Positions 12,201-64,000 of a DNA stretch of 64,000 nt are shown here, piece after piece (position 1 is the first letter of the stretch; every line of letters starts with the position of its first letter). The notes beneath the pieces are model-generated. The model made no database searches. It had not been told where the DNA came from and saw only the letters and a program-made list of their open reading frames with translations. The DNA is taken from contig NC_058513.1 of the NCBI RefSeq assembly GCF_020382885.2, positions 17,509,641 through 17,573,640 of the forward strand, written 5' to 3'. Origin of the DNA: Scatophagus argus (Eukaryota > Chordata > Actinopteri > Scatophagidae). The position numbers and the translations under genes are program-made.

Positions 12201-14429
12201 CTGCTGTAAAACCCAACACAAGCTACACTGATCACACATTTTGTTATTCTCTTGTCCCTGCAGAGTGGTGCACATGACCGTTTGTCTGTCGGACAGCCAG
12301 CTCCACCTCTTCCTGCAGACCCAGTTGCCAGTCAGTCACATTCAGGACTGCGTGCAGGGCCACACCCCCTACTCCGTGACCGACGCCATCCTCACCTACG
12401 CCTCGTCCAATCAGGGCTTCGCTCAGGCTCAGGAGGACGTCTCCATCAAGGAGCCAAGTTTGACCATTTCGTATGAGTCCATGGAGAGGTATGGATAAAG
12501 ACCTTATGATGCGGAAACAGCATGTGGACTGGTGTTGTATGCACTGAATTTAAAAGATGGCTAAGCTCTGACTCATTTTCCGCCAAGAGTTGGACAGAAG
12601 ATCGACACCACTCTTGTTTGTGTAGGCCTGTCATGATGACTGCATATCTTCTTTACCTGATGAAACATGTCCATGACCTGGATTGTTTTTCCTGACCTCA
12701 ACAGGGTCCAGTGTGTTTGCTTGGATAAGAATGTCACCAAAACATTTAAGCCACAGCGATACCAAGATAACTAACAGGATTTTCGCTGCCATTATAGGAT
12801 TCGTTATAATTATTTGTTATTTGTGGGACAAAATATCATCCAACAAAAGAAGTTAACATGACAAGCCTTCATATCTGTTCAGTAAATATGAAGTTAAAAC
12901 CTGTTAACTAAAAGGAACCAAAATCTGTCTGCTAGCACCTGCCCAGCCAAGAAACAGTCCAACACGTAACCGCCTTAAAACCTCAACTTCTTGTTTGTAC
13001 GGTTTAAACAAGTAAGATATGGCACAATATGTTAATTATTTCGCTCAGAAGTGCTGGTGCAAGTGGCTGATTTTTGTTATTGTTGGACAGAATCAGTATG
13101 GTTTTAAGCATGAATATTTTCTCTTCCCCCCTCCACAGCCCAGTTCCTCATCAACCTTGCCTACAAACTAAAGAGACCTTCAGCCCTGAGCTTGTGTCAG
13201 TGAGCGACTCAGACCCCCTAGATGGTTTACTGCAGCCCTGCGATGACAGTGAGGTTGAGGTGCAGCACAAGGAAAAATCCTCAGTAAGAGTCCTCCAGAA
13301 GAACAACCATCTAGAGGCCATTGTTGAGGACTGCGGTGCGACAGAGGTGAGCTTTTTTCTGGGCGACAGCCAGGATGACCCTGAGAGTCTGAGCCTTGCA
13401 GAACAGACCCCGCAGAGGAGCTGTCAGATCCAGACACCGGTGGAGGTGCACTCGCCCATGGGGACCGGCTTCGAGGTGAACTGTGAGGTGGACAGGGTGT
13501 CTGAGGGTTCAGTAAGAGAGGAGAACGTTACGACTGTTGCCCATCCAGACACCGAGGAGAAAGCTGATCAGCAGCAAAGTTGTGAGGAGGCAAATACTGA
13601 AAACAAATTAGAGATGGAAAGAAGTGTGAATTCAGTGGCAGTTTTAGATTTTAAAAATGGTGAAACCGGATCTCAGGAAGGCGTCTGCTCTGAGGAGGAG
13701 GCTCTGGAACATCACATCATCTCCGAGGTTAACGGTCTCGAACCTGTTGCAGAGGTCAACTGTCAGAGGATGTTAGAGAATTCAAACGAGCCAGACGATG
13801 AAATAAGTGCCAAATCAGAGAGCAAAGAGGAGGCGCCGCTTGAGTCCAAACTCCAGGAAGAGAATCACTATCTGCACAGTGCGCCACGGGTGGAACGTGG
13901 AGACGACGACGCTATTCAAAAGCAAGTCGAACAGGAAGAGGATTTGGTTGGGACCAAAGATGAGAGTGATGATAGTGATGATGATGAGAGCCACTCGCTG
14001 CCTTCGTCCAATGAGAGCATCGTCAAGGTCAGCGATGAAGAAAGTGACGAGGCGGAGGATTCGATACAGACCGCAAATGGCCGCTTGAAAACGTCTCGCG
14101 AGGAGGTTACTCTCTGGTCAGAAGTAGAGTCATCCAGCAGAAACATTTTGGACCTACACATGAATGGAAAAGAGGACATGTCCAGCCAGGAGGACATACG
14201 GCAGGAGGAAGACCTGCAGTACCTGACCGAGATAAACGACTTGAGTAAATCTCTGGACCTTGACTCAACTGTAACTGGTGGAGATTTGACTGAAAATAGT
14301 GACTTCAGCATCTTGGAGACCAGCTGCTCTCCCGGATTGGCTGATAGCAAGCGCACAGAGCAGGAAACGGTCCCTGCGCTGTCACTGGACGCCTCAGCAG
14401 AAACTCAGGAGGTGGAGTTAACCTGCTAA
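9206..14429 (+). CDS. snx11: Sorting nexin-11-like protein with long acidic C-terminal tail
   Basis: PX-domain protein that binds PtdIns3P on endosomes and works in membrane trafficking. Coding exons are 9206-9229, 9523-9609, 11707-11807, 12060-12155, 12264-12488 and 13139-14429, all GT-AG and phase-compatible, giving 607 aa. The PX domain runs about 9-120. It has the SNX10/11-specific opening [20 protein letters not shown], the phosphoinositide motif RRYSEF (52-57) and the second basic patch GRRKGL (92-97). Helical PXe-like sequence follows to about 150. From 178 on, the single last exon encodes about 430 residues rich in Glu, Asp and Ser, ending EVELTC. Human SNX11 is only about 270 aa, so the tail is much longer than in mammals. 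SNX10 is the alternative paralogue, but linkage to cbx1/skap1 and the PX sequence favour SNX11. The short first coding exon (MISNQEED) was chosen because its ATG follows an acceptor at about 9189 and its donor is perfect. Confidence 0.93.
9676..10255. repeat. AT-rich dispersed repeat, interrupted copy in snx11 intron 2
   Basis: The first part (to about 9975) carries 'CCGATTAATTGATGACGACT', 'GTTTCAGCTTCTCCAGTGTG' and related words. The second part (about 10120-10255) carries 'CATCTTGGGCTC' and 'GGAGCATTTTTCACTAACGT'. In other copies of the family these words lie together, so this copy is split by unrelated sequence. Confidence 0.5.
11020..11125. repeat. AT-rich dispersed repeat, short fragment
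   Basis: 'GAAGCTGAAACCAGCAGACG' followed by a T-rich tract and 'GACTGAATATTTGAC' matches one end of the same dispersed family, in the opposite orientation to the 9676 copy. Confidence 0.4.
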
Positions 14430-27948: not shown

Positions 27949-30900
27949 CAGAGTGGCTGTGTCTATTTGTCTGACTGAGTATCATGGGAGTTTGTGTGTC
28001 CAGCCCTTCTCTCTATTTATCTGTGTGTGTGTGTGGTGTGTCTCTGCATGTGAGGTAACTACATCCTCATACCTGGCAGCACCTCGTAGATATCCTCCTC
28101 GTCCTCATCGGCGGTCCTCGTCTCCTGCCCTGCTCCCCACCTGCCACTCTGAGAGGCCGGGCCAGCACCGGGCCGAGGCAGGGGAGCGCCCTCAATGTCA
28201 TCGTAGGTCTCCTCATCCTCCCCCTCTTCCTCCTCCTCCTCTTCATCGTCCACAGGGATGATGTCGGAGCTGAGATCTACAGGGGAAGGAGAGGCAACGT
28301 GATGGGCGGCGTTAGCGACAAGATGGAGCACAGCCTGGCATAAAAGACACGCACATGCATTAAAGGGTAAAGTAAGAGAAATGTTCATGCAGTCCTGACT
28401 GCACAACAGGCGAAGGCGCAAGCCATACAGCAGCAGTGACAAGCACTGGAGGCTTGATTTCTGGCTGCAAATAACGTTTACTCTCACCATCTATTAATGT
28501 GTTAATGCTTGCATTTGTTTTGTAAATCACTCAGTAATTCCAGGCCAACAAACAGTCCTGATCTTCTTGAGGAATACAAAGCTAGCAGAGCCCTTTAGAT
28601 CTTTAGGAAACACTCGGCTGGAGGAACCAAACAGAGTGAAGCTGCTTTGAGTTGCCACGCTGCACACAGATGGATCCAACTTCTTGATTATTTAAAATGT
28701 GCCTCAACCCGCCACTTTCCAACTTGAATTAAAAACTTTGTTGTTCTCCTGTGCCTGTGACTGATTGGTTTCTCTACTGCACTTTTATTCCCTTTGTTGA
28801 GCAACCTGCAACTCATTAATGCACTCTAACTGTATTTCTGGTATATTATATTTGTATTTTTTAAATTTAATTTGCTTCATTATATCTCCCTGGAATAAAA
28901 ACTAGTTTTATTCTGACTTAATCAATTTTATTCTGTTTTTTACAGCTTATGAATGACGATCTAATGCTAATTCTAATCTGTTTGCCTACATAAAGCACTC
29001 TGTGTTTGAAATGTGGTACATAAATAAAGCTGCTTTGCCTATTGATTATGATGCATTCCCCCTAATCGCATCTCTTGCTATGTGCCATCTCTCTTTCTCC
29101 TCCCTGTTCCTTTCTGTATTTCTACAATCACTATCAAACAAAGGCAAAACACCAAATATTATCAGAAAAGTCTGCCTCTTTCTCAGGTAAATTCTGGAGG
29201 GTAAATAATCTTCCGGATGCATTTCGTAGTAAAACTGGTCTGGAAGTAAGTAAGACAAACTGCAGAGTGTCTGTTACTTCCCGCAAATCAGTGGCCCGGC
29301 CTGAGCCCATTTTAGAGTAGACTAGGCACGACTGCTCGTTCAGATGGAGGAGCCGTCTCATTGCAAACGACTGGCCACTGCAACACAGGGTATCAGATCC
29401 TCTGCCGTACACCAGCGGCCAAGCAGAAATCAATGTCACTGGAGGATAACCAGAACGTCTACCAATCAATTTCCTGTAAGCTGGAATTCGGTAGGAGAGT
29501 TGGGGGGGTTAGAGGAGAACGAGAGCCACACAGCGGTGCACATGACATGGTGGGTGACATGTCGAATGAGGAGATTCAGGACTCGTGTGTTGGGCTGCGC
29601 AGTTAGTGATGGATCGGGTGGTTTTCACCCGAGTCAGTGATGATAAAGGGCTCCCATTCACTCCTGACCTTTCTGCCCCTCGGAAACACAAGCAAACTTT
29701 AGTGAAAAATTGAGAAAAAACAAGGCTGGGAGGTTTATACTGCTTTAACTGTATTTTCCGTTTAACCTATGTGGTTTTAAAAAGTCAACTTAAGTCAACT
29801 TTATTTATTTAGCCCTGTCTGAACATCCTGGTGTCCTTTATTTTTAAACCCTTGTTGCAAATGAAGACACACACACAAAATAAATGGAGAAAAAAGAAGG
29901 TAAAACCACACACACAGCAGGCACCGCACTAAAGCACAAAGAAATGCTTGCTCACCTCGGAGTATAATCTTGATCTGGTCCACCCATTCTTTGGCCTTTT
30001 CAGGACTGCTGGCAGCAAACTGGCAGGAAAGAGTGACAACAATCCTGCAACTGTAAAACTATACAGCATAAAACTATAAAAGATTTTTAATCTTTTGACG
30101 TATACACTAACTCTCTATCCAGCTGTCTAATAAGGAAAAAAAAAAGCAAATATAATTTTTAAAAGATTGGAGCGACTGGGGAAGTTGTGTTAATGTGTCA
30201 TTCACGCATGTGTTTCCAAATGGCTGATACTTAATTTTTAAGCAGATACAAATATTTGAGAGTGAGATAACAATATAAAGCCAATATTAATTTATTTAAA
30301 CATAATCATGTGTGGCTCCAACTAATGATTAACTCAGATATCCTTTAACATAACAATCATTTTCTCATTTAACAAATGAAATATTCACATTTGATGAAAG
30401 ATGAATATGAATTTCTGGCACTTTTGTTTAAATAATAGCAATAAAAAAATGAATTGACTGTCAGAATAGTTGCCGGGTTTTCTGTGTCAGTTGATTAATT
30501 AATGACTAATTATTTCGGATCTCATCATGTGACGTATGCATTTTTGATAGAGCACCATTAAATTTATTTTTTTGAAAACTGAAGAACTGTGACCAAGATA
30601 CGCCCTGAGAGGGACATTTAAAAGTGAAAACTTTGTATTTCTTGTTATTTCTTGTAGCTTCTCGCTGATGTGCTGGCTGGGCTTTTGAAATTTTCACCAA
30701 AGGAAAAGGATCAATTTTGTGTAAAGACACTCCTACAGCATTAAATTTAATTTCTAAAACAATATCCGTCAATCTGTCTTCCTTAACTTGAATTCAGCGA
30801 CACACACTTTTGATTAGCGATCTGTACAGGTGTGCTGTGGTGGTACAGACCTGGAAAGAACGCCGTCCGGGGGCAAAGAACTCAAAGCAGGAATTTTTCT

Positions 30901-53699: not shown

Positions 53700-54201
53700 T
53701 ATATACATATATTTTTTTAAAGAAATAGAAGGAAATGATTTCAAAGGGAGCAAATTTTGTATGAAAGTAAAAATTTGATTGAACTTAAAAGGGATTATCA
53801 GCCTTGTTACAACCTAAATGTTTTCTTTTTGCAATTAACAGCAAACACAAAACTTTTTGTCTCCATTTTATAGACTTTATCAAGCTAAATCATCACAACA
53901 ATTGTTGGAAAATACCCTGTAAATAAATAGTGCAAACACTGACACTGAGAACTTCAGTGCAACAGAAAACATAGCACGGGCTTATGACAGGCAGCTTTCA
54001 AACAAAGAACGGATGAAAAAATAACTTTTAACATTTTTACAAGTTTCTCGGCATCCGATGCAGAAATGAACGCACCGTCAGCTCAAGCTCTGTATGCACT
54101 GCACAAGTCTGCGTGCATTTTTCACAGTTTTTCTGGAATGGTGCGACTGAGGGGAAGAAGTGAGGACTGCGCAAGCCTCCACAGTCATATTTGTTCTTTC
54201 G

Positions 54202-55340
54202 TTATGGTTCACAGTCCTTCCCCTTCGCCTTTGGAGGGGTGTCAGGGCCGGCGAGTTTTTCCACGGGGCCCGCACTGTTGACCAAAACGCAGCCCAGTTT
54301 CTCGCGTTTCTTCTGCTTCATCCTGCGGTTCTGAAACCAGATTTTCACCTGCGTCTCGTTGAGCTCCAGACTGGCTGCGACCTCCACCCTCCGTGCCCGC
54401 GTCAGGTACTTGTTGAAGTGGAACTCTTTCTCCAGCTCGGTCAGCTGCTTGGTGGTGAAGTTGGTTCGGATCACGTTGTGCTGGCCGGGAACCCCGAACT
54501 CCGACAGGACAGCTGTGGAGAGAAATGGATGAATGGATGATGGAGGAGAACATAAAAGTCACAGAGCTGGAAGTGAGAGTGTCAGTGTGAGGATGAGAAG
54601 GAAAAAATGCAAAACATTAGTCGACAGATTTAATTTTTTAGGACAATGTAAAACACTTAGGCGCCATTATATCAAGTGATTTGTGTTTTACGCACTGTGG
54701 GTCAATATTACCTCCGGGGGTCTCATGGGTTCTCTAAATTGCCCTTGTGGCTCTTATTCTCAGGTCTGAGGACGAACTAACCTGTTTTCGGGGGGTTCCT
54801 CTTCACTTTCATCCAGTCGAATGTTTTAGACGTTTCCTCCACGTGGTCCAAATCCTCCCTCTTACTTTGGGGCGGTAACCTGGCGTAAACACTGTCTGAA
54901 TATTCTTGCAGCCTCTGGTCTCCGTTGCCAAAATGTAGATATTGACTGCCGGTGGCAACTGCAGGCCCACAGCTGTCCCCGGTGTAGGGAGCCATGTTTG
55001 TTCCCAGCGGTGAAACTTGTGCGTGAATGTAGCTCCGGTCCTGTTCGGGTGCGAGGCCGTACTGGTGATGTCCGTACTCCAGAGGCGACCCATACATGGA
55101 GTTACCCGCTGTTGCAAATTGCAGGTCGAGGTTGACGTGTGTCTGGTGGTGCAGAGGGAGGCTCGGGCTCTGGTGTGGCGCAGACGTTGCTGCAACTAAG
55201 CGCCCGTCCGGTGCGTAACTATCACTTGTTGCGCACGAGTTGCTCGACATGTATCCATGGTTCAGATTGTGGTATCCGGCCTTGGGACTGAAGATATTTG
55301 CTCCCCGGTTGCACACGGGGTAGTCTAAGTAGGAATTCAT
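54202..55340 (-). CDS. hoxb1b: Homeobox protein Hox-B1 (hoxb1b type), two exons
   Basis: Nuclear transcription factor of paralogue group 1, specifying hindbrain segments with Pbx and Meis partners. Exon 1 is 55340-54782 and exon 2 is 54512-54202; the G|CT junction restores frame and gives 289 aa. It begins [17 protein letters not shown], has the Pbx-binding hexapeptide TFDWMK (173-178) followed by VKRNPPKT, and a homeodomain at 199-258 ([16 protein letters not shown]...[14 protein letters not shown]), diagnostic for group 1. The tail after the homeodomain is only about 31 residues and Pro/Lys-rich. hoxb1a is the main alternative. The hoxb1b assignment rests on the N-terminus lacking a MDN-type extension, a hox3 gene only 1.4 kb upstream, and no hox2 between. 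hoxa1a is unlikely, because cbx1/snx11/skap1 are HOXB-side neighbours. The first in-frame ATG of the exon was chosen; it matches the usual group 1 MNSxLxY start. Confidence 0.93.
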
Positions 55341-55525
55341 CCTGGACCCGGGCCTATTGTTTGTTCAGAGCTTGATCAAGACAGAGCAGTCATTAATCGG
55401 TGCTCCCTTTGCCCTGACCTTCTAGGTAGTATGTCAAAGCTGTAAAACTGCCTTCCACCCTCATATCACCTTCCTGACACACCATGTGACCCGACAAACG
55501 CCAATGGCAAAGGACCTACAGCACT

Positions 55526-56704: not shown

Positions 56705-58598
56705 CTACAGATGAGTCAGTTTTGGAGCTTGCATGATTCTGTCCTGAGTGCAGCTCTGTGGGAAATATGAGCCGTCAAGATCCACGTCTGGGTCTGCAGT
56801 GTGTGAGCTGCCGTGCGTGTTGTACTGCACGTTAAACAGCGGGCCGTGCGTGAAGCCTGAAGCGGGATACTTGGAGTAGTCTGCCGGGTACGCCGGCTGG
56901 GTCTGCTGCTGTTGTTGGGGTTTGAGCGCAGGGGAGGCGGGCTGGTAGTCCCCGCCCAGATGGACATAACCCAGGCTCGACAGCGTGGGGCTGCCCGGGG
57001 CGGAGGGGGACGACGGGGATGAGGAGGAGGAGGTCGTGCTGGTGCTGGTGAGGCCCTGCACTCTCTCGTCCTTCTTCTGCTTCATCCTCCGGTTCTGGAA
57101 CCAGATCTTGATCTGCCTCTCCTGGAGGTTGAGCAGACTGGCCATCTCCACCCGCCGCGGCCTGCACAGGTAGCGGCTGAAGTGAAACTCCTTCTCCAGC
57201 TCCACCAGTTGCGCGCTCGTGTACGCGGTGCGCGTCCTCTTGGAGGCCGGGCTCGCGCTCGGGCACTTGTCGTTGACGGAGGTGCCTGTGGAGACAGAGA
57301 GGAGGAAGGTCAAAGAGGAAGGGACCACCGGGTCAGAGCAGGAACTGTGAGGGTCTGCTGGGTCCATGTTTCTGCATTTCTTCCTTACTTTCTGCGAGTC
57401 TGACTGGCGTTTCCTGTCAGTTCTCGGTTTAAATAACTGACGTCCTTATTATGATCATGTTGTACCAAAGTGCCCACAGGACGTAGCTGTGAAGAGCGGG
57501 CCTGTTCAGCCAACCTAACTGGTATAAATAACTTTATTTTGTAACTGTGTATACAAATAAACGTGTGTGTTTAAATGCCATCCTAAAAGCTGAGCTCAGG
57601 GTGGGTTTATTCTTCTGCTGCATGCCGGACTGTAGCTTCAGGAGGAAATAGAAGATAATTTTACTCAGTGAATTGTTTAAAAGCTTCCTAAATAAAATAT
57701 GCAAAAAAAAAAAAAAACTGGCAACAAAACGCGAAGAAAAATAAGTTCATTACGTTTTATATGCTGACAGTTTGGACGTGGAGGAATCAGGAGGAATCAG
57801 GTCCAGGATATTTCAAAAATGGTGACATTAAAGTTCAGCTTGAGGTGATGAGTCAGCAACTGCAGCCAATACGTGGATGTTTGATCTCTTCCAGAGATTA
57901 AAAGGTTAAAGTTGTATGCTGTACAAACAGTAAAGGCCTCTGAGGTAAACTTGTAGTTTTGGGTTATTTAAAAATAACTTGAATAGACTATCAGGCTCTT
58001 TAAAACCTGACGTACTCCACTAAAACCTCATTTTATAAACTTGGATTTTTCTGAATTAATTTTTCTGTGCACTACAAATATTTCTATTATTTTATTTGGT
58101 ACTCAAATAACCCCCACCCCAAAATAAATAAATAAAATAAAATAAAAATAATATCCGAGTCAAGGTGTTTCTCCTGCTGCTGCATGTCTGACTGCAGCTT
58201 CATTAAAAGCCTTCTGATCTTTTGACCCTGAGAAGAAGAAAATATGAGCTAATTTCCTCCGTTAACTCCATAAAGGCTCGTTAAAGGGCGCACAAATGAA
58301 GAGGCCTCATTTGCTGGCTGCTCATCATGTCATACAGACCTGCGGTCCTCCTGCCGTGTCTCTGGTCTGAGTGTCTGGACTCTTTCATCCAGGGGAAAAC
58401 CTTTTTGCTCATGGGAACTTTGGGGTTTTGTTGCTTTGACCTCCGGGGAAACGCGCGCTCAAACGTGTCCGTTTGCGCCGGTCGGTGGTGCGCGGCTGCG
58501 TGCTGTGAGCAGCCGAAGCCGCCGACTTCACCCAGAGCCTGGCTGAAGAGGTGGTGCCGCTGGACGGTGTGTGCAGAGCTGCTTTCCTGCATTTCCAT
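56705..58598 (-). CDS. hoxb3b: Homeobox protein Hox-B3 (divergent hoxb3b), two exons
   Basis: Paralogue group 3 Hox transcription factor. Exon 1 is 58598-58340 (donor GCAG|GTCTGT) and exon 2 is 57285-56705 (acceptor CTCCACAG); the G|GC junction gives 279 aa, against about 430 in human HOXB3. The Pbx hexapeptide is [10 protein letters not shown] (66-75) and the homeodomain is 102-161 ([19 protein letters not shown]...[14 protein letters not shown]). The C-terminus QAPKLTHL is the hallmark ending of Hox3 proteins. Oddities: homeodomain positions 22, 35, 40, 55, 59 and 60 differ from the near-invariant Hox3 sequence; the N-terminal MQKxxYY box is absent or eroded (MEMQESSS...[13 protein letters not shown]); the linker and tail are short. 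The start could be the second Met (58592), which begins MQ as Hox3 proteins do. The frame stays open upstream to an acceptor-like site at about 58696, so a further 5' coding exon is not excluded. Confidence 0.9.
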
Positions 58599-60595
58599 GC
58601 AATGTGCACCGGGGGCCCCTTTGACCTTCTGACGGAGCGCTGGCAGCCAAATGTCACATGGCAGGTTTCCAGAGAGCCCTGGGCTTCTGGCCTGAGAGGA
58701 TCCAGGGGAAAAAAGACGGAGACAGAATCAGGGAGGAGACCACATGATCCATCTTATCAACTCAATAGTACGCTGACATGAATAGCAAGCCGAGAGGCGA
58801 CGGGAAATCAGGGGCTTTGGGGGACACAAACCGCCTGAAAAACACAAATCCGAGGATAATCTCGTACAATCTGGGGAGAAATGAAATTATTTTCCTGTTG
58901 TTTACCCCCAACAATTAGTGTAGACCTCAGTGAGGCTTGTTTTCCTTTTCATTATGTTGTTAAACAGCTGAAGCAAACGAAGAAACCATTTCAGGTTATG
59001 AAACGCGGTTATTTCTTCTTATTATTATTATTATTATTATTGTTATTATTATTATTGTTATTTTGTCCAAAAACGGATTAATGAAACCAACAACAACGGC
59101 AGCGCATGGCAAACAATAAAACCAATTAGTCCACGCACAGACATAGAAACATTAATTAAGAAAAAGAAAATAGATTTAGCACAAGTATGAAAGCAAATAC
59201 ATTAATTTGATTCTTTTCTCCGCTGTGTGTTTCCTGAAATTAGACTGGGCCTTTGGATCAAATAAATAACAGCCTTTATTCGGTTAATGGATAGTCATGT
59301 TTCTAACATTTTCAAGGAGGATAAAATGAATTGTTCCATCACAATCTCCTACAAAACTCATCCATCACGAAAAAAACTAAACAGAATAATAAAAGAGTCC
59401 TTTGTGCGCTGCGGCCGTTTTATGGCCTGAACTGCAACGCGATCAAAAGAAAAACCAGCCAAAATCCTCGTGAAATTCAACTCCTCTCACGTTCTAAACG
59501 CAACAGAATTGTAAAGCAGCAGCTTTAAGGGCAGAAACGGAGAGAGAATAAGTCTGGAGGCACGCAGCTTTATGAACTCTGGTTGAACCGCGGCTGGAGT
59601 CAAGCTCGTAAATCATAAAGACACATAACCCAGTCCGCGGCACAACAGCCCGGCTGCCTCACACCCACAGCCCACATTCAGCAGCTCCGAAACAAACACG
59701 CCGACAGCCTCCCTCTCACCTTTCTGGAAAGCCTCCCAGGTCAGAAGAATCCCCGCAGAGGAGGCGAGCGGCTCCCGCATCAGATGATGTGACGGAGGCT
59801 TTGCGGAGTGGACAGCGTTTCTGCAGCTCACACCGCCCTGCACAGCATTTCTGCACACTGTGTGTGTGTGGTGTGTGTGTGTGTGTGTGAGGAAATACAA
59901 GCCCTTTCTGCTGATCATGCAAGCTCAGTTTCATATGATAATAAGCCCCTGAGATAAAGATCACACACGGTTTTTGGATGGCAGTTAGAGCACAGGGAAA
60001 ATCCCGAAACATTAAGGTGGCTGAGGAGAGGAAAAGATTGGAATATTTCTGTTTCTGACCCTCATTTGAAGTTGATTTAGACAAGTGAAAGGGCCTTTTA
60101 AGAAGACGCCTCCCTTCGGTGGCGCGAATTAAAAAAAACAACAAAAAACCCCCCAGCTTTTTAAACTTTTTATTCTGAAACGTTCAAGCTGCGTTTTCAG
60201 CCCAGAAATCCTCCTCGTGTGAACAGACAAGCAGCTACGTCTCCTGTCCCGTTTCAGCCCTCCTGGGAACGCGTCCAGCGCTGTAACAATAAATTCAAAC
60301 ATCCCATTTAAGAGCCGCGCCAGAGACGCCATAAAACACCCAAGCAAAGAAAGCTGTCAGTATGTAGTCTGAGTTTTTTAACGCACTCACATACCAAGTG
60401 CATTAGATCTTACTTATGTAATGAGATTTTTTTTTTCTAATTTAAATGAGTGATCCGATGGAGTCGTTTTAAAGCTCTAAAGGGGAGACAGACGGTGGAA
60501 GTTGAGGCTGTGATGAGGCCCGGACTCGAGCTGATCCTGGTTTTACACCATGAACCAATCAGATTACTGCGTGGGGGGGGATCGATCTGATCTCT

Positions 60596-61554: not shown

Positions 61555-62609
61555 ACCTCCACCCCTCCACTCAGTCTGCAGGCCTGCTGACAAATGCAGC
61601 CACTGCAGCCTCTCTTGTCAATTAGCTGCAGGCACCACGTGTCCACCAGGAGGGGATTTATGGCTCTGAATTAATTCAAAGACAGTTGAGTCAACAGCAG
61701 CAGCAACCTCAGCTCACACACACGACGCACACAGTGGAGCAAATGAAGAAATAATCTAATAAATCTAATTAAAATAGTTTTTAAAAATCAGGCTTTAAGT
61801 AAAATTTCTAAATTCCCTTTTTATCCAATAAATCAAGATCAAAGCCATAAATAAAACTTTATTTTCCATCTTCCACTTTCCAGCTATATGCAGACTTAAG
61901 TGATTATTATTTGTCAACAACTTCTCCTGCAGGAAGCCATCCGAGGAGGCTGCTGTAAACAGATCACTCTATGAAACACAGTTGTAGTGATATGAAACAT
62001 GCCTCCATAGGAGAAGTTAGAATTGTTGACAAGCACATTAACCGTTTAACACTCATTTTATCTGCTCACAGCCTCTTTGTAAACCAGCTGACTGCTGCAC
62101 ATCAGATCCACACTCACACTCTGACTGCTGCACTTCTGCTGCCAGCACAGTGAAAAAACACGTGTGGTTAACTTACTTTTTGTCTTTGGGCTCGGTCCTC
62201 CTCATCGAGACGCTCGCACTCTCGCTGCAGACTTGGAGTTGTTTGTTTGAGGTCCTCCTCACGTTTCCCTGCAAAGCAAAACTCCTCCTCGGCTGCAGGC
62301 AGCGCAGTGAATAGAAGATGAACGACGTGCCGAACAAAGGCCCACATTGAAGGCCTGTCCTGCAACTTTCACACATGTCATATTCTCCAACAATGAGCAG
62401 CTAGAAGAAGAAGAAGAAGACGAAAGAGAAAAACACTCAAACAGTGCAGCTTATTGACTGTGCTGAGGGCCTGCAGCTCTCCACGCAGACCCTCCTCTCG
62501 CCACGACAACAGCCTCAGGAAACTGCAGCAGGGCCCATACTGCTGGACGTACAGGAAGCAGCGTTTTGCTGACCTTTAGGCGAATGTTTTTCTTCCCTCG
62601 AGGTCAAGT

Positions 62610-62697
62610 GTCATCACCTACATACTCCCCAAGACGCGAATTTGTGGCTGCTGCCATATTCACACAAATTCGGATCTACAGGGTGAATATAGATGAC
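62610..62697 (-). ncRNA. mir10a: microRNA mir-10 precursor (mir-10a type)
   Basis: The minus strand from 62697 to 62610 folds into a hairpin. GTCATC (62697-62692) pairs with GATGAC (62615-62610), and CGAATTTGTG with CACAAATTCG flank the loop (about 62662-62647). The 5p arm (62685-62663) matches miR-10a, including the ACCCTGT seed and GATCCGAATTTGTG; the 3p arm is about 62646-62621. The first mature base, U in known miR-10s, is C here, and the 3p arm carries a matching A-to-G change, so pairing is kept. mir-10 genes sit next to hox4 in Hox clusters and repress Hox mRNAs. The miR-10a form agrees with a HoxB location. It is co-oriented with hoxb3b. Confidence 0.93.
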
Positions 62698-64000
62698 AGG
62701 TCGCCAGTCTGCACGCGTGCACAGGGACAGAAGCTGCAGCCTGCTTAATTATTAACTAAATTCAAAACAATGCACTCAGATACTTACTTTTAAATGTGAC
62801 CTGAAGGGTTTAGAGCCCACTGTTGGCTTTATTAATAGTGAATTAATCATTAAGGTAGGTTCATCAGCACAGATGAGAACAGAAAACAATCCGGTCGGAT
62901 GGTGTTTCTCCCCTTCTGTTGGCTAACAACACAGTTTAATAAATTCTCTTATTTTCTGTAAGTCATCAGGTCTGAGTTACAAGAGTCAGTGAGTCTTTGA
63001 TAAGGTTTGAAATGTTAATAAGCCGTTAATGTCAGGTTTGGTCTGAAGTTGTCCGTGTTATTAAGTGATTAATAAATGCAGCTGAGTCAGAGGAAGTTTG
63101 CACGACCTGCGGCTGTTGAAAGGTACCAGAAAAACACTTCAGTCCAGAGTTCAGACATCAGTGTTTCAGCTGTGTGACCTTCATCGCACGGGGATTTTTA
63201 TTCTTGGACTTTGACTGGTTTTTAATATTTGCAGGCCGTGTAACTCAAGCTTTATCTGCCTTCAGGCTCACAGTGATGGAAGAAGAACTCGGATCCTAAA
63301 AGTACCAGTCACACACTGCAAAAATACTCAGTAAGTGGTAAGAATACACAGTGAGAGTGTGCTCACTCTGTAGAAAATGTTCCCATGTGAGAAATTATTA
63401 TTATGTATGAAATAGTTCACACTGATGAATCCTGTAAACAGGATCACATGGTCACATACAGTTTAGGGGTCGAACCCCCAAAGGAGCTGATGAGCTGATT
63501 GGTTTGACAGAAAAGAAGACAACATGCAGGACCTTTTGGCCACACAAGACTCTGTTCGTTTTTCAGCCTTTTCTCTAATCTTTTCATTTATTTAGAGAAA
63601 TGTTGAATAAAATGAATGAAATAAAAAATATGAAATAAAAATTAAATTGCTTACAGCTCACAGACATCTAAGCTTTTTGTAACAGGCCAAAAAGCTTTGG
63701 ACCCACAAACTGAATAACAAAAGCTATAATCCTTTTTTTTTATTATTTTAAATCTTAAAGTTACACGTGCTTATAGCCGCCTGTTAAATGCGGTGGAATA
63801 AAAAGCACTGGCCTCTGAGACGTATGGAGTATGACTTCAACGTGGCATAACATGGACTTACTCAAATACACTCAGCTGCTTTCCAGCCGTGAAGAGGAAG
63901 AGCAGCTCGGTCTGATTTTCAGGCTCAACAGCCTGAGTTCTGATCAGAGTTTCTCTCTCGGCTCAGAGTGTCGGGGATTAAAGGTTTATTCCCTCCACTC
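62698..64000. other. Intergenic DNA upstream of mir-10
   Basis: No coding exon, homeobox or repeat family recognised to the end of the window. The next Hox gene (hoxb5b expected) lies outside. A MafB/ETS motif pair at 63080-63097 is listed separately. Confidence 0.5.
63080..63097 (+). promoter_or_regulatory. Candidate MafB (kreisler) plus ETS element
   Basis: GCTGAGTCAG (63081-63090) is ten bases of the MARE consensus TGCTGAGTCAGCA and runs directly into the ETS-type AGGAAGT (63091-63097). The mouse Hoxb3 rhombomere-5 enhancer is known to need kreisler sites with a nearby ETS-related site. Here the pair is about 4.5 kb upstream of hoxb3b. A preceding GTGATTAATAAAT (63065-63077) is Pbx/Hox-like. 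Confidence 0.35.

Follow-up and report, generated by a model that had tools for sequence, protein, structure and literature searches.

A mir-10 hairpin, probably of the HoxBb cluster, in Scatophagus argus with C at the first mature base and U before it

The minus strand of the window (the whole stretch of DNA analysed, 64,000 nucleotides) carries a mir-10 gene in which the first base of the mature strand is C (62685) and the base before it, called base -1 here, is T/U (62686). The variation is genuine but minor and affects a gene already known, and the effect of the change at base 1 is likely to be modest. On balance we think it somewhat probable that this is a working mir-10 copy, probably that of HoxBb, in which C1 and U-1 push the product towards the form starting one nucleotide later (the +1 form), while its Hox role has probably been largely kept.

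The identity of the gene is plain. RF00104 was the sole Rfam match at gathering threshold within the 64-kb window, with 64.7 bits against a gathering score of 47.5, an E-value of 5.6e-14 and coverage of model positions 1-74 of 74; the E-value together with the full-length match means that the mir-10 call is not due to chance. The body ACCCTGTAGATCCGAATTTGTG (62684-62663, minus strand) is identical to miR-10a positions 2-23 at all 22 bases, the reference letters being those printed in PMC2148072 and PMC10558778. Thus the miR-10a-type mature body, ACCCUGUAGAUCCGAAUUUGUG, is present in full (22/22). No second place within 6 mismatches of this 22-mer was found on either strand of the window, and its exact sequence gave 0 matches in viral contigs and 0 in prokaryotic genome contigs, as expected for such DNA. 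The usual U at mature position 1 is absent; a U there is no requirement for the Rfam match. The star arm reads GGGGAGTAT on the minus strand, including the letters GGGGAGUAU. The sequence-only reading had called a mir-10 with an altered first mature base and an altered preceding base at 62610-62697; the identity was borne out, the letters at 62685 and 62686 were confirmed, and its coordinates agree with the predicted stem. The elements of the locus are as follows.

62617-62692, minus strand: mir-10 precursor, probably the HoxBb paralogue (Rfam RF00104)
62687-62697, minus strand: 5' side of the predicted 11-pair lower stem, partner 62613-62623 (pair probabilities 0.80-0.95)
62686, minus strand: base -1, a U replacing the A of the zebrafish upstream sequence and mismatched with U62624 (Rfam, folding, comparison)
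62663-62685, minus strand: predicted mature strand of the 5p arm, CACCCUGUAGAUCCGAAUUUGUG, beginning with C (sequence)
62684, minus strand: start of the +1 form, A (sequence)
62623-62644, minus strand: predicted star strand of the 3p arm, CAAAUUCGCGUCUUGGGGAGUA, delimited on the hairpin by assuming a 2-nt overhang
62625, minus strand: star-arm G opposite C1 (sequence, folding)

Two homeodomain genes lie downstream of mir-10 on the same (minus) strand.

54202-55364, minus strand: hoxb1b-like gene, spanned by the open frames 54202-54558 (with the homeodomain) and 54777-55364
56705-58727, minus strand: hoxb3b-like gene, spanned by the open frames 56705-57445 (with the homeodomain) and 58281-58727

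The best solved-structure match of frame 54202-54558 was HOX-B1 (1b72, E 1.3e-32). Frame 58281-58727 contains FPWMKESR, and we take 56705-58727 to be hoxb3b-like from this motif and from gene order; there was no Hox3 among the best 60 solved-structure matches listed for frame 56705-57445. Frame 28059-28490 (minus strand) resembles a SKAP1 exon, which would be in keeping with HoxBb neighbours. Pfam gave no match for that frame, for 54777-55364 or for 58281-58727. The cichlid HoxBb cluster is described as containing hoxb6b, hoxb5b, hoxb3b and hoxb1b, with scap1 and snx11 among its neighbours (PMC2080641); hoxb5b would be expected to lie outside the window. On the strength of its Hox gene neighbours the locus is probably the teleost HoxBb paralogue, the mir10-Bb of PMC2080641, which it resembles in its Rfam hairpin, its 22-nt body and its same-strand downstream Hox genes. 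Elsewhere in the window, the plus strand has an acidic open frame of 452 aa at 13071-14429, for which Pfam gave no match.

The zebrafish morpholino MO2, which covers conserved upstream sequence and the mature start, is reported to have at most one mismatch to any of the five miR-10 paralogues (PMC2148072). Its reverse complement differed from the window at three positions, 62694, 62686 and 62685. Bases -1 and 1, which the sequence-only reading had called changed, therefore depart from letters that the zebrafish paralogues very largely share, C standing in place of U at base 1 and U in place of A at -1; the reference in this comparison is the zebrafish upstream sequence as printed (PMC2148072). 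The description of the usual U as near-universal fits the few vertebrate sequences compared but has to be narrowed for the family, since aphid libraries contain a miR-10 entry starting with C (1,073 and 5,395, in the units used there) and another starting with G (1,067 and 72,241) (PMC3500242). That paper was also the only match when main article texts were searched for C-start spellings, and no fish paper with the C-start form was found among these texts. Spellings of the star arm and the upstream sequence matched flounder mir-10d, along with two papers apparently unrelated by title, and the inner stretch of the star arm had no match. The body string from base 2, present in 102 papers, decides nothing in such a search because it is also contained in the U-start form. 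Passages of PMC4159003, PMC7574432, PMC4132760, PMC7280754 and PMC5974277 gave no 5'-end data on fish HoxBb mir-10.

In the Rfam consensus structure mature positions 1 and 2 are unpaired, and only the pair at -1 is marked as non-standard. Folding gave a lower stem that ends at a loop composed of U-1, a half-paired C1 and an unpaired A2. Over six flank sizes at 37 C the unpaired probability was 0.80-0.94 for base -1 and 0.99 for A2, and C1 paired with G62625 with a probability of 0.43-0.51, rising to 0.66-0.71 at 28 C. With one of the six flanks (62600-62710) the minimum-energy fold lay in another register, with C1 paired to G62627; the probability of this pair was 0.19 there versus 0.06-0.08 in the other five. 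An ancestral-like control (U1:A62625 with A at -1) paired at base 1 with a probability of 0.94 at 37 C and 0.97-0.98 at 28 C. Putting A at -1 alone raised C1:G62625 to 0.99 and made the fold 4.3-4.7 kcal/mol more stable, and in the present background U1:G62625 was predicted at 0.10-0.12 (37 C) and U1:A62625 at 0.26 (one flank size). The change at -1 thus turns an A:U pair into a U.U mismatch and leaves C1:G62625 isolated. Judged from the folding of the window against these altered versions, the largest effect comes from losing the -1 pair, and C1 with G62625 is predicted to regain part of it.

It had been suggested that a U:A pair has become C:G through a compensating change in the star arm. 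The star G does face C1. The word compensating is nevertheless too strong: the stem is opened by the change at -1, and flounder pol-mir-10d, whose base 1 is U and whose body is of the mir-10d type, shares the star-arm letters GGGGAGUAU of the locus (PMC3144956). For the same reason the star G alone was rejected as proof of co-evolution: the flounder has UAGGGGAGUAU with U1 (PMC3144956), its G facing U by alignment only. When the printed 63-nt flounder precursor was folded alone, this G paired with C3 and not with U1. The argument from the star G is weakened too by the prediction that U1:G62625 with A at -1 would pair with a probability of 0.70-0.90 at 37 C.

The proposed consequence for processing runs as follows. 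With U facing U at -1 and A2 unpaired, the stem would have a small internal loop where Drosha cuts, and this loop, combined with the poor acceptance of 5' C by Argonaute, would move the product to the +1 form. The main product would be ACCCUGUAG, with 5' A and seed CCCUGUA, and a CACCC form with the usual seed would be the minor one. Teleosts carry several mir-10 paralogues. Since the shifted form already makes up a sizeable share of miR-10a in other vertebrates and such paralogues exist, the change at base 1 is probably tolerated. According to PMC8865264, Drosha cleaves at a distance of about 11 bp from the basal junction, alternative cleavage and 5' isomiRs are brought about by internal loops, and flexible pri-miR-9-1 gives a +1 isomiR. 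Like the locus, pri-miR-9-1 combines an internal loop in the stem with a +1 5' isomiR, but its case is experimental and its loop lies in the lower stem, whereas that of the locus is predicted and lies at the cut (PMC8865264). Ago2 is described as disfavouring 5' C and favouring 5' U, and the abstract of PMC4730269 agrees on U and A as 5' bases. The sequence-only reading had offered altered cleavage, a later-starting isomiR or altered arm choice. Among these the +1 isomiR with a shifted seed remains the best prediction, given the modelled loop at the cut and the disfavoured 5' C. The predicted star arm also starts with C, so its first base would give it no edge over a C-start 5p strand and a disadvantage against an A-start one.

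A shift of seed is no novelty for the mir-10 family, the shifted form being known in human and mouse. The main miR-10 form of the fruitfly is reportedly the one with seed CCCUGUA, as a swap of major and isomiR forms would also imply. Such a swap between fruitfly and mammals is described in PMC3919606, where seed CCCUGUA accounts for 21.8% of human and 28.6% of mouse miR-10a-5p. In one human cell line with full Drosha the table of PMC10558778 gives 9750.7 reads per million for the +1 form versus 6310.2 for the U-start form, and in mutant cells the +1 form is the rarer (2808.1 versus 4760.9), with the order of columns as we interpret it; the text of that paper, unlike its table, speaks of miR-10a without any 5' variants. 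Seed-shifted forms are reported as isomiRs in many species too (PMC4132760). The human and mouse +1 isomiR is identical to the predicted main product of the locus, although the precursor there has U before the A and not C.

Several computed quantities are neutral or point the other way. The predicted basal junction of the window coincides with that of the ancestral-like control, so the distance rule alone predicts no change. Duplexes starting with C, A or U all had a predicted energy of -18.9; with the basal junction equal as well, neither picks between the cuts. In the energy test on a 126-nt stretch (z -1.23) 23 of 200 shuffles folded equally well or better, which is weak, and the hairpin energy is thus unremarkable. 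A CNNC motif, expected 16-18 nt beyond the 3p end, begins 20 nt beyond the predicted one and was not used as evidence.

If C1:G62625, at 0.66-0.71 at 28 C, keeps the stem closed at fish temperatures, the usual cut would be favoured, and the product would be CACCCUGUAG... with the ordinary seed and a function unchanged save for weaker loading. The unaltered body and ordinary seed suit this conservative variant, as does the predicted presence of the pair in about half of the ensemble even at 37 C. Base 1 of a miRNA is not known to pair with targets. The C-start aphid entry (PMC3500242) likewise speaks for it; the disfavour of Ago2 for 5' C and the predicted loop at the cut speak against it, and we regard it as unlikely, though worth keeping in view. 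The new U at -1 might just as well draw the start one base upstream; the product would then be UCACCCUGUAG..., whose seed is CACCCUG. As a 5' base U is preferred, and this U is predicted to be unpaired. Drosha generally cuts 13 nt from the basal junction. Thirteen nucleotides from the predicted junction, however, lies nearer 62685/62684 (compare the rule of about 11 bp in PMC8865264), and the human miR-10a form starting at -1, where the base is A, had 0 reads per million in both cell types of the PMC10558778 table; we hold an upstream start to be very improbable.

The changes might also be early output-lowering lesions in a copy that is redundant with other mir-10 paralogues and has begun to decay. 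In medaka, gap-free sequence yielded no mir10-Bb, which may have been lost there (PMC2080641), and the fold would gain the 4.3-4.7 kcal/mol mentioned above from A at -1. The unaltered 22-nt body and the full-length Rfam match above threshold argue against relaxed constraint, to which we give rather less credence than to the conservative variant. An assembly or sequencing error at 62685-62686 could be suspected from two adjacent differences within an otherwise conserved stretch. The length appears unchanged, however, and the facing star base seems to differ too, in a way that allows it to pair with C; we hold such an error to be most improbable.

Should the shift to the +1 form be real, nature would have supplied, in this locus, an experiment on what fixes the 5' end of a conserved microRNA, with changes at the cut site and the body intact. 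The paralogues expected in the same teleost genome would serve as internal controls, and duplication of Hox clusters would be linked with a division of isomiRs between the copies. Otherwise, the change would amount to a harmless substitution in a redundant copy.

The expectation that the Hox role is largely kept rests on targets of the form UACAGGGU, which both isomiRs would match; a candidate of this kind lies in what is taken to be the hoxb1b-like 3' UTR.

53913-53921, minus strand: TACAGGGTA, candidate miR-10 site (seed match), about 280 nt past the hoxb1b-like stop codon

This 3' UTR was taken as the 507 nt from the stop (54202) to AATAAA at 53700, with inferred limits. In 20,000 dinucleotide shuffles of the stretch the 9-mer occurred in 0.02% and the 8-mer ACAGGGTA in 0.065%; for the 7-mers the figures were 0.34% (ACAGGGT) and 0.27% (CAGGGTA). 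These percentages overstate the strength of the site, as the stretch was picked after a scan of the whole window. No other ACAGGGT occurs on the window's minus strand. The site offers an 8-mer match to the usual seed and a 7-mer match to the shifted one, and a seed shift would therefore not abolish it. A bolder version, which we consider doubtful, is that in one fish lineage HoxBb mir-10 has been fixed, by changes in both arms at the Drosha cut, as a dedicated maker of the CCCUGUA form, with a hoxb1b site UACAGGGUA readable by both seeds.

Zebrafish hoxb1a is a reported miR-10 target, a candidate site is present in the hoxb1a 3' UTR of teleosts with sequence available, and HoxB3(a) has at least two sites in all species which that study examined (PMC2148072). 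A site in hoxb3b like those of zebrafish hoxb3a was rejected: the 7-mers ACAGGGT, CAGGGTA and TACAGGG are all absent from the minus strand over the hoxb3b-like gene, which weakens the parallel with the zebrafish targets. The gene contains one 6-mer, CAGGGT at 58225, between its two frames.
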